NCBI RefSeq assembly: GCF_008692195.1
Contig: NZ_RXOM01000032.1
Span: 186,001 to 250,000, forward strand
Source of the DNA: Salegentibacter sp. R32
GTDB taxonomy: Bacteria > Bacteroidota > Bacteroidia > Flavobacteriales > Flavobacteriaceae
DNA length: 64,000 nucleotides
Reading direction: 5' to 3'
Part shown: in pieces, positions 27,483 to 35,924 of the stretch
Numbering within the stretch: position 1 is the stretch's first letter
Layout: every line of letters starts with the position of its first letter
The notes under the pieces: model-generated
The model's database searches: none
What the model saw: the letters and a program-made list of their open reading frames with translations, nothing else
Told to the model about the DNA's origin: nothing
Program-made: the position numbers and the translations under genes

Positions 27483-29161
27483 TTAGATAGGACTAGTAGG
27501 ATTTTGAGTAGGAGCTATTTTTTTCTGCGTCTCCCTTGCGTCTTCAGTGATTTGAGAAGGATAGTTATAAAGCTCAAGGATTTTAATGGCGTTTCTGGTT
27601 TTTAATTTCCCTTCTTTGAGCTGATGATCAAAGCTGAGCTCATTATTTTCAATTTGTTCGCTAAAATGATATAGATCAAACTTTTCCTTTTGAAGAAAAT
27701 CTGTTAATTCAATATCGTGGGTAGAAACCAAAACCATATTATTTTCACTATTTAGGTAAGAGAGTATGGCTTTTCCGCCGGCAATCCTTTCGATGGTATT
27801 AGTTCCTTTAAAAATTTCATCAAGAATAAATAAACATGGCTCGGGATCTTGTGAGGACTTAATGAACTCTTGTAAAGTTAATACTTCTTTTAAGTAATAA
27901 CTGGTATTCTCCAATACATCATCTGCAATCCTAATAGAAGAATATAATTTGAAAAAGGGAGTAGCAAACTCTTTCGCAAAACAAATGTTTAAGGTTTGGC
28001 CCAATATACTATTGATTCCCACGCTCCGGATGAAGGTAGTTTTTCCCGACATATTAGAGCCCGTTAGTAATAAACTAGAATGCGCCCTAGATTTAAATTA
28101 TTGGGAATACAGTTTTCAATTAAAGGATGAGTAATTTCTTTAATTGTTAAGTTTTTAGATGTTGTAAATGTTGGGCTGCAGCACGTAAAATTGCTTGCTT
28201 TTAAAGAAGCCGTTGAAATAGCAGCATCAATCTCTCCTATAAAATGAAACATTTTACATAACTCTTCTTGTTTATCCCGAATGGAATCAACAAAACTGTA
28301 AAACACAATGTACTCTACATTGAAAAGAATTTTAATGAACTCAATAAGCAACCAGATTACAGAAGCAAATTCATTATCAATATTCTTTTCAAAACTGATA
28401 AATTTTGTTTTCAGCTTAATTTTTTCTACGTTTTTTATGAAACTAGTTTCCGAAAATTTACTTTTCACTTTAGAATAACCAGCAATGGTTTTGCTAACTT
28501 GAAGTACTTTAGTCATCTGGACAACTCCATCTAAGTAAGTAGATACATTCCATTTATTTTTATAATGAAAAGCCATATTGGTTGCTACAACAGGAATAAG
28601 AAACAAATAAAAAATCGGGAAAAAGAAACCTAAGGTTATAAAAAGCAGGGATAAAAAAGACAAGGTATAGATGAGCCCTATGAATTTAGGCTTAGGGATG
28701 GGTTCAGAATTAACCAATTCTTCAAAATGGTAAGAAGCGTTGGAATTGATTTGTGATAGTTGAAATTGGGTTTTTAATCGTAGTTCTTTGTCTTGTGCAA
28801 ATAGTTGGGTTATAGCATCAAATTCAGCTAAACTATCTTTGTCTTGAATGGTTCTTATTTTATAATATAAGTACTGTTGTCCAACTTTAGAACTGGTCCT
28901 GTCTATTACTTTAAAAACTTCATCAAGATCTAAGTCTTTGGCACAGCGGTCTGAGATAATATGATAAGCCTCCTGAAATTTCCGAGTGTTTTCAAAATAT
29001 TTTTCAATATAGTAAAAGTTGAAAAATTCCTCAGATTTACTTTTTCCCCAATTATCACGAAGATTTTGGAGGGTTCTTTGTCGCTTCTTTTTAGCTCGGT
29101 AATTAACGATCATTATACCTAGAATAATAATTATCAAAAGTCCGAGAATCCAATTCATCAT
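27483..29161 (-). pseudogene. MutS-like ATPase split by a frameshift
   Basis: Two adjacent frames together encode a MutS-related protein with core and ATPase domains but no mismatch-recognition domain. The first (29161 to 28064, 365 residues) has an N-terminal membrane segment, then the MutS core, ending NLNLGRILVYY before a stop. The second (28052 to 27483) begins just inside the Walker A motif (MSGKTTF) and carries Walker B (LFILDEIFKGTN) and a switch motif (VSTHDIEL). Adding one base near the C run at 28085-28087 would join NLG to AHSSLLLTGSNMSGKTTF, restoring the expected sequence. A single-base loss is therefore the simplest explanation. The family is uncharacterised in Bacteroidota. Confidence 0.75.
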
Positions 29162-31400: not shown

Positions 31401-31408
31401 TACCTTTG
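31401..31408 (+). promoter_or_regulatory. Candidate -7 element of the UvrA-like gene
   Basis: TACCTTTG matches TAnnTTTG and lies 28 bases before the ATG. No clear -33 TTTG. Confidence 0.45.
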
Positions 31409-31436: not shown

Positions 31437-34400
31437 ATGCGCCTTCAAAACGCTACTCAGAATAACCTTAAAAATATTTCTTTAAGCCTACCTGAAAACC
31501 AATTGATTGTGGTTACCGGTCTTTCTGGTTCGGGTAAGTCTTCGCTGGCGATGGGTACGATCGCTAACGAAGGTTATCGTTATTTTTTAGAAAGCTTACC
31601 GGCTTATCATCAACAAAACAGTATTGGCATTCCTACGGCAGAAGTCGATGCCATTAGTGGTTTGCCACCGGTAGTGAAGGTAGAACAATCTAAACGTTTT
31701 CAGTCCATCAAAGCTACTTTTGGTACGTTGTCTGAACTCGCGCCTATTTTTAGAGTTTTATTTGCGCGTTATGCAGGTAAAGAGAAAATGAGTAAATCGT
31801 TATTTTCTTTTAATCATCCTCAAGGAGCGTGTGCTCAATGTCGTGGAATTGGAGAGGAAGAATATATCGATATTGAAAAACTAATCGGTGACGAAAGCAA
31901 AACCTTGCGTGAGGGTGCGATTGTCACCACTTTACCTAATGGTTATATTGTGTATTCGCAAGTTACCGTTGAAGAACTCAATAAAGTTTGTAAAGCGCAC
32001 GGTTTTCACGTCGATATGCCTTGGAAAGACTTAACCGAAGAGCAAAAAAATGTAATTCTCTACGGCAGCGATCGCCTTCAGGTGTTTTATGGCAAACACA
32101 GCATCGAATCGCGTTTACGTTGGCAAGGCTTTAAAGCCAAACCGCGAGAAGAAGGTTATTACAAAGGGGTGATGCCTATTATGGAAAACATTCTTCGACT
32201 CGATCGTAACAAAAGTATTTTGCGTTTTGTGAGTTCGCGAACCTGCCCCAACTGTGGCGGAGCCAGAATTAAACCGGAACACTTAGCATTTCAGTGGTAC
32301 GGATTAAATTTTCAAGAATGGATGCAACTTCCCTTAACCGAACTGTATGAGCGCTTGCAAAAATTAGAATTTTCAGCAGGTGAACAGGTTTTGGTTGATA
32401 AAATGAATACCCAATTGTTCGATTTTATTCGATTGGGAATGGAGCATTACCGTTTAAATACGCCGAGCACTGAAATTTCTTCGGGTGACGCCCAGCGCAT
32501 CAAACTCATCAAGCAAGTGAACAGTAGCTTGCAAGGCATTTTGTATGTGTTTGACGAACCTTCGATCGGTCTTTCTGAAGCCTATCAAGAACATCTACTT
32601 CATATTTTACGCCGACTCATTCGCAACGGAAATACCGTGATGGTGGTCGAGCACGATCTCGAATTTATTCGATCGGCAGATTGGGTGGTCGAGTTAGGTC
32701 CGGGAGCGGGAGTTGAAGGCGGCGAAGTCTTGTTTAACGGGAAGCTAACAGATTTTTTAACTGCGGAAGAAATCACTACTCCAACGAAAAAGGCTTTTGA
32801 AAGTGATCGTTTGACTGTTGAAAAAGTTAAAGCGGTACAACCAAAAGATTTTCAACCTCAGGTGGAAGCTTTGCATGTGATCAGTAAAAAAACGAAAGCG
32901 GTTACCGAGAAAATAGTTTCTTTTTGTAAGAACAATGATTTTCAACTGCATCAGGTCGACGATCAACCCATTGGGAAAACTCCACGAAGCAATCCTGCGA
33001 CCTATACCGGTTTGGCCGATAAGATTCGGGATTTGTTAGCGAAAACTACCGCTGCCAAAGAAGCGAAACTCATGAAAAGTGCTTTTTCTTTTAATAATAA
33101 AGCCGGACGATGCCCACATTGCGAAGGCGCCGGTGTGATCATCTTATCGATGAGTATGCTGGGAACGGTGAATCAAACTTGTCCGCATTGTTTAGGAAAA
33201 CGCTTTCAGCCTGAAGTCTTAGAAGTCACATGGAATCAAAAAAACATTGCCGATATTTATGAGCTGAGCATTGATGAAGCGCTCGATTTCTTTTCTGAAG
33301 AAAAAAAATTAGCAGGCATTTTATCATTAATGCATCAATTGGGCTTGGGGTATCTCAAGCTCGGGCAAGCCTCAAATACTTTATCGGGAGGAGAAGCACA
33401 GCGTATCAAACTCACAAAGCATTTTGCCAAATCGGCAAAGAAAACCTTGTTGTGGTTAGAAGAACCTAGTATTGGTTTACATCAGCAAAATGTAGCTCAA
33501 TTACTGGCAGCCTTGCAGCAATTAAAGGTGAAAACAGCCGGAATTGTTTGTATAGAGAATCATCAACTTTTTCAGCAAGCGGCCGATGTTTGGCTCGATA
33601 ATGCTGAAGTTATTCCGTATCAAGAACCAACGCTTCCTGCGGTTCAGCAGCAAGATGTTATTTCGGTAAGAGGAGCGCGAACCCACGCTTTAAAAGATTT
33701 GAATGTTGAATTTCCGAAGCAACAATTATCGGTGGTGACCGGTATTTCAGGTTCAGGTAAATCGTCTTTAGTGATCGATACCTTGCACGGTTATGGTTTG
33801 CAAGAAATGACCAAGCAATTTTCAAGTTACGAGCAATCTCGCGTCGGTGTTAATTTTCAGCTAGAAGTGGAACATATCGAAGGTTTAACGCCTAGTATTT
33901 GCATTAGCCGGAAAGAGAAAAATTTTACTGATCGCTCCGATCTTGCTAAGCAAACCGATATTGATAAAAGTTTACGTTTTGCCTTTTCAAGAAAAGCACA
34001 GTATGAAGGAAAAGATTGGACGGCGAGTCATTTTTCTAATCAGCACGAATTAGGAAAATGTGTGGTTTGCGATGGCTTGGGAGAAGAGCAATTGCCCGAC
34101 CCGCAAAAAGTGGTGATCGATGCCAAAAAAAGCATTACCGAAGGAGTTTTTACCCATAACAAAGCGCTGGCGTATTATGGGCAACCTGATAGTCAATATA
34201 TGGCGGTGTTGAAGGAAGTAGGGAAGGCGAATGGCTTCGGTTTACAAACGCCTTTTGAAGATTTAACGCCTGCGCAACAAGAACTCATTTTTAATGGAAT
34301 TCCCGATAAAAAGTGGAAGGCTACTTGGGAGTTTAAAACCAAAACCCGAACCGGAACCCAAGAATTGCATATGGTTTGGGAAGGGTTGTTTACCTATTTA

Positions 34401-35924
34401 CGTGATGAATATTTAAAAACGCGAAAAAACAAACACATCAAAGCTTTGCAAGCTTTACTTTCGGCACAAACCTGTAGCCATTGTCAAGGCAGCGGCTTGA
34501 AGCCGGAGCGATTAGCCATTGAAATTGGCGGCAAGTCGTTGCACGATTTAAAATCGATGAATTTTGAAGAATTTGCTGAATTTTTATCGGAAACTTCTTC
34601 ATTTTCCCAAATTGATCGAGATCTAGTGAAGCGTTTAGAAGAACATTTACAAACCACTCTTTTACGCGCGCAGCAATTGCATATCGATTATTTACAGTTG
34701 AACCGAAAATCGAAAACGCTGAGTGGCGGTGAACAACAACGCGTTGCATTGATCAAGCAATTAAATAGTCCGTTGCAAGGCGTTACCTATTTGTTAGATG
34801 AACCTTCGGCCGGTTTATCGCAAGCTAATATTCCCGATTTAATTCGGTTATTGAAAGAATTGGTAGCGAAAGGAAATACGGTGATCGTGATCGAACACCA
34901 TAAAGATATCATCTTGGCTGCTGATCGACTGTACGAGATCGGTCCCAAAGCCGGAAGTTTAGGAGGTGAGTTGATGTTTGAAGGGAGTCCGCAAGCATAT
35001 TTGAAAACTGAACATTGTCATTCGTTTTTGAAACAAGCTCCCGAGGCGATTCAGCTTCAACCGGGAACGAAACAAATTCAGCTTCAGCAATTAGAAAAAC
35101 ACAGTTTAAAGAAAGCGCATTTGGCCATTCCTGTGGGCGGAATTACCGCCATTTCCGGTAAATCGGGCGTGGGAAAAACTACGTTGGTCAAAGAAATTTT
35201 AATCCCCAGTATGGAACGAGGCAAACCGGTGAATTGTGCGCAAATTGAATTTCCTACTACTTATGCCGGCGTTGATTATTTTGAACCGAAAAAGTTACGC
35301 GCGCATCACAAAACCTTGTTGGTCGATTATTTAGATCTCCTGAAAGTGATCACCAAAGTATTTGCCGATCACAGCGAACAACCGTCTCGCTATTTTTCTT
35401 ATAAAACCAAGAGCAGCCAATGCCCCAACTGTAAGGGCAAAGGGTTTGTAGAAACCAGTTTAGATGTGGTCGCTAATGCTGTGGAAGTTTGTGAAGTTTG
35501 CGAAGGCAAGCGTTATCAAACTGAAGTTTTGGACGTGAAGGTCGAAGCGAAAAGTATTGCGGATGTTCTTGCGTTTAGCATTTCAGCATTAAAAGATTGG
35601 CTGCAAAACTTCGCGGTAAAATCTACTACAGAAAAATTCCTGCAGCAGCTCATCGAAATTGGCTTAGGACATTTAGCGATCGATCAAGCGGTTACTTCAC
35701 TTTCTTCCGGAGAAAAACAGCGTTTATTATTGCTAAATTGGCTTCAGCAACCTGAAGAAAATCAATTATATATTTTAGATGAACCCAGTACCGGATTGCA
35801 TTATGCCGATATTGATTTGTTGTTCAGTATTCTTCAGCAACTCAGTACCACTAATGATTTGCTGGTGATCGATCACAATCTTTATTTGTTAGAAAAAATA
35901 GGCGTTGGGATGATCTTGGTATAA
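31437..35924 (+). CDS. Tandem UvrA-like protein with four ABC modules
   Basis: A 1495-residue protein made of two UvrA-like halves (about 1-735 and 740-1495). Half 1: Walker A GLSGSGKSS (28-36), signature ISSGDAQR (347-354), FDEPS (D373/E374). Its second module has TPRSNPATYTG (515-525), CxxC pairs at 559/562 and 582/585, LSGGEAQR (649-656) and LEEPS (675-676), but no P-loop. Half 2: GISGSGKSS (from 769), LSGGEQQR (1095-1102), LDEPS (D1121), then GKSGVGKTT (1241-1249), CxxC at 1329/1332 and 1352/1355, LSSGEKQR (1422-1429), LDEPS (D1448). In both halves the segment that holds UvrB-binding domain and first zinc pair in UvrA is absent. Genuine UvrA is about 940 residues. It may act on drug- or lesion-bound DNA without UvrB; the DNA looks less AT-rich than its flanks. 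Confidence 0.85.
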   Translation: MRLQNATQNNLKNISLSLPENQLIVVTGLSGSGKSSLAMGTIANEGYRYFLESLPAYHQQNSIGIPTAEVDAISGLPPVVKVEQSKRFQSIKATFGTLSELAPIFRVLFARYAGKEKMSKSLFSFNHPQGACAQCRGIGEEEYIDIEKLIGDESKTLREGAIVTTLPNGYIVYSQVTVEELNKVCKAHGFHVDMPWKDLTEEQKNVILYGSDRLQVFYGKHSIESRLRWQGFKAKPREEGYYKGVMPIMENILRLDRNKSILRFVSSRTCPNCGGARIKPEHLAFQWYGLNFQEWMQLPLTELYERLQKLEFSAGEQVLVDKMNTQLFDFIRLGMEHYRLNTPSTEISSGDAQRIKLIKQVNSSLQGILYVFDEPSIGLSEAYQEHLLHILRRLIRNGNTVMVVEHDLEFIRSADWVVELGPGAGVEGGEVLFNGKLTDFLTAEEITTPTKKAFESDRLTVEKVKAVQPKDFQPQVEALHVISKKTKAVTEKIVSFCKNNDFQLHQVDDQPIGKTPRSNPATYTGLADKIRDLLAKTTAAKEAKLMKSAFSFNNKAGRCPHCEGAGVIILSMSMLGTVNQTCPHCLGKRFQPEVLEVTWNQKNIADIYELSIDEALDFFSEEKKLAGILSLMHQLGLGYLKLGQASNTLSGGEAQRIKLTKHFAKSAKKTLLWLEEPSIGLHQQNVAQLLAALQQLKVKTAGIVCIENHQLFQQAADVWLDNAEVIPYQEPTLPAVQQQDVISVRGARTHALKDLNVEFPKQQLSVVTGISGSGKSSLVIDTLHGYGLQEMTKQFSSYEQSRVGVNFQLEVEHIEGLTPSICISRKEKNFTDRSDLAKQTDIDKSLRFAFSRKAQYEGKDWTASHFSNQHELGKCVVCDGLGEEQLPDPQKVVIDAKKSITEGVFTHNKALAYYGQPDSQYMAVLKEVGKANGFGLQTPFEDLTPAQQELIFNGIPDKKWKATWEFKTKTRTGTQELHMVWEGLFTYLRDEYLKTRKNKHIKALQALLSAQTCSHCQGSGLKPERLAIEIGGKSLHDLKSMNFEEFAEFLSETSSFSQIDRDLVKRLEEHLQTTLLRAQQLHIDYLQLNRKSKTLSGGEQQRVALIKQLNSPLQGVTYLLDEPSAGLSQANIPDLIRLLKELVAKGNTVIVIEHHKDIILAADRLYEIGPKAGSLGGELMFEGSPQAYLKTEHCHSFLKQAPEAIQLQPGTKQIQLQQLEKHSLKKAHLAIPVGGITAISGKSGVGKTTLVKEILIPSMERGKPVNCAQIEFPTTYAGVDYFEPKKLRAHHKTLLVDYLDLLKVITKVFADHSEQPSRYFSYKTKSSQCPNCKGKGFVETSLDVVANAVEVCEVCEGKRYQTEVLDVKVEAKSIADVLAFSISALKDWLQNFAVKSTTEKFLQQLIEIGLGHLAIDQAVTSLSSGEKQRLLLLNWLQQPEENQLYILDEPSTGLHYADIDLLFSILQQLSTTNDLLVIDHNLYLLEKIGVGMILV

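Follow-up and report, generated by a model that had tools for sequence, protein, structure and literature searches.

In UvrA the sites for ATP are composite, the proximal site being formed by ATP-binding domain I and signature domain II and the distal site by ATP-binding domain II and signature domain I, and in the account of PMC6486640 an arginine that stacks on the adenine precedes the distal signature (I), while a glutamine precedes the proximal one (II). Signature domain II and the insertion domain are described as having a role in DNA contact (PMC7835731). The UvrA-like protein Ecm16 is reported to need its ATPase activity and to act without UvrA, UvrB, UvrC or UvrD, and its insertion domain to be required both to bind DNA and to raise ATPase activity sharply on drug-bound DNA (PMC10192343). 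Here we describe a gene from Salegentibacter sp. R32, located in a stretch of 64,000 nucleotides (contig NZ_RXOM01000032.1, positions 186,001 to 250,000; hereafter the window), that encodes two UvrA-like halves in one chain of 1495 residues. Both halves of this double UvrA lack the UvrB-binding domain, and both are specialized, in opposite directions.

The original prediction, made from the sequence alone, had placed one reading frame with two UvrA-like halves at this position, and its coordinates, strand and length are exact (31437-35924, plus strand, with the ATG at 31437 and the stop at 35922-35924).

Domain make-up and asymmetry of the halves

As a whole, the protein matches the UvrA family TIGR00630 with 1099 bits against a cut-off of 729.8, in five separate stretches, and each half contains the UvrA DNA-binding insertion domain (PF17755) together with ABC ATPase parts. 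When the halves, with the boundary set by us at residues 735/736, were compared with the sequences in the PDB, each matched 11 distinct sequences at an E-value of 1e-10, all of them named UvrA and including 2vf7 and 7sh1. Conservation is given below for 61 aligned double-UvrA sequences, including that of the window, which remained after two loci that are cut off (L079 and L101) had been dropped.

The UvrB-interaction domain PF17760 was found in neither half (Pfam, threshold 1e-4), although it is present in the two ordinary UvrAs that the genome also encodes (E-values of 7.7e-29 and 2.8e-19). Nor is there room for it. The spacing from R111 to C132 in half 1 is 21 residues in 60 of the 61 sequences and 54 in the remaining one, and from R852 to C875 in half 2 it is 23 residues in 60 sequences and 31 in one. 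The stretch aligned with R111-C132, running from the LFAR motif to the next zinc pair, comprises 155-177 residues in 23 canonical UvrAs and 21-60 residues in seven class II proteins. Zinc module 1, a further feature of canonical UvrA, is missing in both halves, and the retained zinc pairs are modules 2 and 3 in each, with all 16 cysteines invariant (61/61). The lack of a UvrB-binding domain and the likeness to UvrA2-type proteins, both put forward in the original prediction, are thus borne out, the latter as regards what is missing: in common with class II proteins the double UvrA has lost this domain and retained the insertion domain along with zinc modules 2 and 3. The chain length departs from that class, with 1495 fused residues compared to 750-885 in the seven class II proteins.

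Unlike canonical UvrA, the double does not have two complete composite sites for ATP in each UvrA unit. Three of the four P-loops remain, and they are those at residues 28, 769 and 1241 that the original prediction had listed for its four modules, with Gly, Lys and Ser/Thr invariant in 61/61. The fourth, the distal P-loop of half 1, is truly lost, its pattern being found in residues 441-520 of none of the 61 sequences; neither this loss nor the asymmetry had been stated in the original prediction. All four signature motifs that it named are present, although two of them have changed, to ISSGD at 347 and to LSSGE at 1422.

The proximal site of half 1 is fully canonical, with P-loop 1, Q84, D373/E374, H406, the LSGGE signature at 649-653 and Q644 all kept in 61/61. 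At the distal site of half 1, which has no P-loop in any of the 61 sequences, the Walker B Asp is replaced by Glu in 59/61, the position of the H-loop His is occupied by Asn in 58/61, signature 1 reads ISSGD, and the adenine-stacking Arg five residues before it is a Thr (56 sequences) or a Ser (5 sequences). Because the P-loop is missing, this site presumably cannot bind ATP, and we take it as dead. In half 2 the proximal site keeps P-loop 3, Walker B and H1154 in 61/61, but its signature is altered to LSSGE and its Q-loop Gln is an Arg in 59 sequences and a Gln in only two. The distal site of half 2 keeps P-loop 4, Walker B, H1480, LSGGE and Arg1090 in 61/61; its Q-loop region reads FE..(K)L, with a Gln anywhere in residues 1281-1287 in only 4/61. 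Of the four sites, one is thus fully canonical (half 1 proximal), two are altered but have P-loops (both in half 2), and the distal one of half 1 has none.

On the DNA side the pattern is the reverse, as seen when each half is compared with the 260 alignment columns that are kept in at least 95% of the 23 canonical UvrAs (14 sequences per half). At the Q-loop and the start of signature domain II, which directly follow the second P-loop and in half 1 include the PRSNPATYTG segment, half 1 has a retention of 0.78 and half 2 one of 0.23, although the alignment displaces Q510 of half 1 by one column and thereby slightly lowers the half 1 value. In the second ATP-binding region the order is reversed, with 0.09 in half 1 compared to 0.46 in half 2. 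For the seven class II proteins the corresponding values are 0.73 and 0.72. Within the conserved segment of half 1 (residues 507-531), R517, S518, N519, P520, T522, Y523 and R531 are each found in 61/61, and the PRSNPATYT motif itself may touch DNA.

The asymmetry is fixed over the 61 sequences with few exceptions, and ten marks of it taken jointly are present in 61/61. One specialized half, as originally suggested, is an understatement, since both halves are affected. The positions of the features are collected in Table 1.

Table 1. Positions of the double-UvrA gene and its features in the window.
Feature	Position	Strand	Evidence or remark
Double UvrA-like protein gene	31437..35924	+	1495 aa; orthologues found
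Half 1, residues 1-735	31437..33641	+	PDB search best 3pih, 2r6f, 2vf7
P-loop 1, residues 28-36, half 1 proximal site	31518..31544	+	identical 61/61
Half 1 junction without UvrB-binding domain and zinc module 1, residues 107-131	31755..31829	+	no PF17760; spacing vs canonical UvrA
Half 1 DNA-binding insertion domain, residues 145-250	31869..32186	+	PF17755, E 3.8e-15
Signature 1, changed to ISSGD, residues 347-351	32475..32489	+	I, G, D 61/61; S348, S349 60/61
Half 1 ATP-binding region II, degenerate and without P-loop, residues 441-505	32757..32951	+	0/61 with P-loop pattern in 441-520
Half 1 conserved Q-loop/signature-domain-II segment, residues 507-531, QPIGKTPRSNPATYTG	32955..33029	+	retention 0.78
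Zinc module 3 of half 1, residues 559-585	33111..33191	+	4 Cys 61/61
Signature 2, LSGGE intact, residues 649-653	33381..33395	+	61/61
Degenerate Walker B (EE) and H-loop (EN), module 2 of half 1, residues 671-709	33447..33563	+	E675 59/61; N708 58/61
Half 2, residues 736-1495	33642..35921	+	PDB search best 9gxk and two variants, then 2r6f, 3pih
P-loop 3, residues 769-777, half 2 proximal site	33741..33767	+	Gly, Lys, Ser/Thr invariant 61/61
Half 2 junction without UvrB-binding domain, residues 848-874	33978..34058	+	no PF17760; spacing
Half 2 DNA-binding insertion domain, residues 888-999	34098..34433	+	PF17755, E 1.9e-14
Signature 3, LSGGE intact, residues 1095-1099, with distal-site Arg1090	34719..34733	+	61/61
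P-loop 4, residues 1241-1249, half 2 distal site	35157..35183	+	Gly, Lys, Ser/Thr invariant 61/61
Half 2 replaced Q-loop/signature-domain-II segment, residues 1281-1306	35277..35354	+	canonical-invariant retention 0.23
Zinc module 3 of half 2, residues 1329-1355	35421..35501	+	4 Cys 61/61
Signature 4, LSSGE, residues 1422-1426	35700..35714	+	S1424 60/61, other four 61/61
Possible promoter -7 element TACCTTTG	31401..31408	+	28 bases before ATG; weak

Conservation, descent and genomic setting

Eight of the 16 genus genomes, the source genome among them, carry a full-length, uninterrupted copy of the gene; the other seven copies are 66-96% identical to the window copy, and no stops were found in the eight. 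In wider samples, each again including the source, full-length copies were found in 3 of 100 genomes of the family and in 5 of 395 of the order (E-value 1e-250), and one 251-residue stretch of half 2 was matched in 2 of 395 genomes of the phylum (E-value 1e-25). With this single stretch and this strict threshold, no match outside doubles, and hence no stand-alone relative of half 2, was seen in the 395 phylum genomes. A scan of named genomes gave 62 loci, 60 of them complete; since its two peptide patterns were derived from three double-UvrA sequences, more distant relatives would be missed. The named loci include Mesonia, Salegentibacter, Christiangramia, Zunongwangia, Sinomicrobium, Psychroflexus, Robertkochia, Marivirga, Echinicola, Brumimicrobium, Fluviicola and others, and the 60 loci in the tree are all labeled Bacteroidota, with Flavobacteriaceae, Crocinitomicaceae, Marivirgaceae, Cyclobacteriaceae or no family given. 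Most carriers are marine or saline organisms, as their names suggest.

The double UvrA is under strong purifying selection. The nearest named relatives of the window copy are from Mesonia mobilis and other Mesonia, and comparison with four Mesonia copies gives a ratio of nonsynonymous to synonymous substitution rates (dN/dS) of 0.059-0.094 for the whole protein. For residues 441-500, the expected place of the lost P-loop, the ratio is 0.13-0.82, a rough figure from only 60 codons.

In a FastTree gene tree of the 61 sequences, some branches of which are weak, Mesonia, Salegentibacter and Marivirga are each scattered over distant places, and Pustulibacterium falls inside Zunongwangia. Because of this scatter and the changing neighbors of the gene (see below), horizontal transfer is suggested, with loss and paralogy as alternatives. 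No relative was found in the viral contigs scanned with two seven-residue peptide patterns followed by tblastn. Carriage by phages or plasmids was considered and rejected, as plasmid (909) and phage (54) records matched only below 60% identity; the matches listed (25 plasmid and 10 phage rows) are 31.5-34.3% identical. A separate observation concerns single-size UvrA-like proteins of 750-810 residues, encoded at one locus of a family genome (L012, genome G029) and at three plasmid loci (L116-L118). Neither L012 nor L116 shows PF17760 in Pfam (thresholds 1e-6 and 1e-4), and one of the plasmid genes lies on a 15 kb Roseivivax plasmid typed as conjugative, adjoining a TetR regulator.

The two halves are 34.3% identical to each other, and either is 30-39% identical to canonical UvrA and 32-38% to class II. 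Trees were built with 13 of the 23 canonical UvrAs, 6 or 7 of the 7 class II proteins and, for each half, 7 or 9 sequences; eight family loci whose UvrA frames were cut or short had been dropped. The canonical UvrAs form one group and the class II proteins do not, while the two halves have a long branch each. They join each other with a support of 77, which is not decisive and may reflect long-branch attraction. In a topology test that left out the long-branch sequence L121, grouping with class II was rejected neither for half 1 (p-AU 0.40) nor for half 2 (p-AU 0.45), so that a putative descent of either half from class II UvrA is neither shown nor rejected by the trees.

The source assembly (4.08 Mb in 68 contigs, 99.8% complete) also encodes two ordinary UvrAs (L001 and L002, of 943 and 928 residues counted from the first ATG), and one UvrB and one UvrC above curated cut-offs. 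The canonical uvrA that had originally been proposed as a point to check is therefore present twice, and the double is not the only UvrA of the genome. A second, partial UvrC match (positions 4-184 of 574, E-value 1.6e-28) lies at 126213-126758 of contig C64 of this genome, within a 457-residue frame.

The double-UvrA gene stands alone, with the upstream frame on the opposite strand and the downstream frame, a DoxD/DoxA protein, convergent. No conserved neighbor was seen: the commonest family occurs within 9 kb of 10 of the 63 loci (the 62 and the window), in a survey in which neighbors were clustered rather than annotated one by one and in which some loci are cut by contig ends. An operon or partner genes were rejected on this ground, as no neighbor family is near more than 10 of the 63 loci. 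Upstream of the ATG, TACCTTTG resembles what we take to be the -7 promoter element of Bacteroidota (consensus TAnnTTTG). The pattern TTG-N17-23-TAnnTTTG is found in 5 of 61 double-UvrA upstream regions compared to 8 of 1200 random stretches, and TAnnTTTG by itself is seen within the 150 upstream bases in 26 of the 61 cases, a figure without a control; the evidence for a promoter common to these genes is suggestive only.

Elsewhere in the window, a MutS-family gene looks split (27483-29161, minus strand). The piece at 27483-28052, of 189 residues and in another frame, matches MutS domain V (E-value 7.6e-24), and the piece at 28064-29161, of 365 residues, has no Pfam match above the cut-off and was assigned to MutS by eye.

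Possible function and alternative explanations

We propose that the double UvrA is a single-chain, asymmetric relative of UvrA that would scan double-stranded DNA and use ATP to clear something off it independently of UvrB. This reading, drawn by analogy with the drug-resistance protein Ecm16, we consider evenly poised. The UvrB-binding domain is absent, and the protein should therefore not load UvrB, in which case no hand-over to UvrB would occur; instead, the use of ATP would push or strip a DNA-bound small molecule or a bulky adduct off the DNA. Such a self-contained DNA-clearing machine is favored because Ecm16 is the nearest tested precedent, and the double may likewise give UvrB-independent protection against DNA-binding compounds, as has been shown for Ecm16.

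In this reading the halves would fold into a covalent dimer, as had originally been suggested, and enclose one DNA duplex as a pseudo-dimer. Half 1 would be responsible for canonical DNA reading, half 2 would supply the distal ATP site, and the gene itself would spread as a stand-alone accessory gene. A more specific version, in which the protein is a fused UvrA 'heterodimer' that splits DNA reading and ATP use between its halves and is spreading among marine and saline Bacteroidota as a UvrB-free DNA-clearing system, is put forward more tentatively. In this version half 1 would have kept the segment at the DNA face and one canonical proximal site, its distal site being dead, and half 2 would have kept both P-loops, with the only live distal site of the chain, but not that segment.

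Several observations weigh against this proposal. Catalysis by half 2 may be weak, because the Q-loop Gln is lost in nearly all sequences, and the C-terminal stretch after the last H-loop, which canonical and class II UvrAs possess, is mostly missing in both halves. In the trees no grouping of either half with class II UvrA was obtained, and half 1 is 35.6-39.0% identical to canonical UvrA compared to 33.3-37.8% to class II. The analogy with drug resistance thus rests on shared absences and not on shared descent, since the halves are long separate lineages and half 1 is equally near to canonical UvrA. Furthermore, no conserved link to drug biosynthesis, transport or regulators was seen among the clustered neighbors of the 63 loci.

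The pairing of the halves could also be of a different kind. UvrA and Ecm16 are both described as dimers (PMC6486640, PMC10192343), and nothing in the double-UvrA sequence fixes which halves pair, so two doubles might associate, half 1 with half 1 and half 2 with half 2 (or half 1 with half 2 across chains), to give two DNA-binding saddles. The complementary losses between the halves are simpler under a single asymmetric unit but not decisive against such a dimer of doubles, which we regard as rather improbable. A slightly lower probability is given to a lesion sensor that would feed normal nucleotide excision repair through binding to an ordinary UvrA, UvrC or a transcription-coupled factor instead of UvrB. 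Such a role would be in line with the presence of two canonical UvrAs, UvrB and UvrC in the genome, and with the link between UvrA2-type proteins and DNA-damage tolerance described in PMC5128194. On the other hand, the UvrB-binding domain is missing in both halves, and the gene, carried by only 3 of the 100 genomes of the family, does not belong to the core repair of these relatives.

An anti-phage or anti-plasmid factor was considered on the basis of matches to the PADLOC models mad3 and mad8 of MADS defence (E-values of 7.1e-88 and 3.8e-32) and of the patchy distribution of the gene. However, with both models the ordinary UvrA of this genome gives a higher score than the double (321.9 compared to 293.6 bits for mad3 and 142.6 compared to 110 for mad8), the matches were accordingly rejected as non-specific, and the gene has no conserved partners; we find a role in defence very hard to credit. 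For an assembly artefact or a decaying fusion of two genes, the former of which the original prediction had itself named as what could overturn it, nothing speaks beyond rarity (5 of 395 order genomes). The uninterrupted genus copies, free of stops and found in half of the genus genomes, the 60 complete loci of 62 in the named scan, dN/dS of 0.06-0.09 and dozens of motif residues conserved in 61/61 exclude the artefact and rule out decay, and this explanation can be regarded as refuted.

Comparison with known UvrA-like proteins

Canonical UvrA (TIGR00630), represented by the two ordinary UvrAs of the same genome, is 33-39% identical to each half, and these two proteins carry the UvrB-binding domain that the double lacks. 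In the UvrA2 of Deinococcus radiodurans (class II; PDB 2VF7/2VF8) the UvrB-binding domain is missing as in the double, according to PMC5128194, and half 1 matches 2vf7 with an E-value of 5.6e-137 (best stretch 3-436). However, UvrA2 is an unfused chain of 842 residues.

Ecm16 (PDB 7SH1, whose sequence matches both halves) and DrrC are UvrA-like proteins of drug self-resistance. PMC10192343 describes Ecm16 as having no UvrB-binding domain and no zinc module 1, but zinc modules 2 and 3 as well as an insertion domain, as in the double. In the same account Ecm16 is a homodimer with four ATP sites, whereas the double is fused and presumably has one dead site. Both Ecm16 and DrrC are of single size (792 and 764 residues, compared to 1495), and their genes are described as lying in antibiotic gene clusters, while the double is in no conserved cluster.

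As regards the fusion, the double resembles the tandem UvrA PRK00635 (NCBIfam, 1809 positions), which we take to be the chlamydial tandem UvrA, in having two UvrA copies head to tail, but scores only 705.2 bits compared to a cut-off of 3054. Tandem UvrA fusions are usual in betaproteobacteria. A tandem UvrA from Cupriavidus has the same head-to-tail order, but both of its frames match PF17760 (E-values of 6.7e-9 and 1.6e-14), whereas neither half of the double does. This Cupriavidus locus, on the megaplasmid NZ_CP076061.1 of Cupriavidus sp. EM10, consists of two overlapping open frames, and its reading frame looks broken there.

Tandem UvrAs and UvrA-like proteins without a UvrB-binding domain are thus both already known, and what is new is their combination with a fixed, complementary asymmetry. 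Among the matches listed in the open-access literature, no title or abstract start mentions a double UvrA without a UvrB-binding domain. The division of labor between the ATP sites of the UvrA dimer is hard to test because mutations in a homodimer hit both copies, and in this naturally asymmetric single chain, where one site is dead, two are altered and one is canonical, each could be tested alone. If the double UvrA does act without UvrB, it would represent a second architecture among the DNA-protecting UvrA-like proteins, outside the known antibiotic gene clusters.

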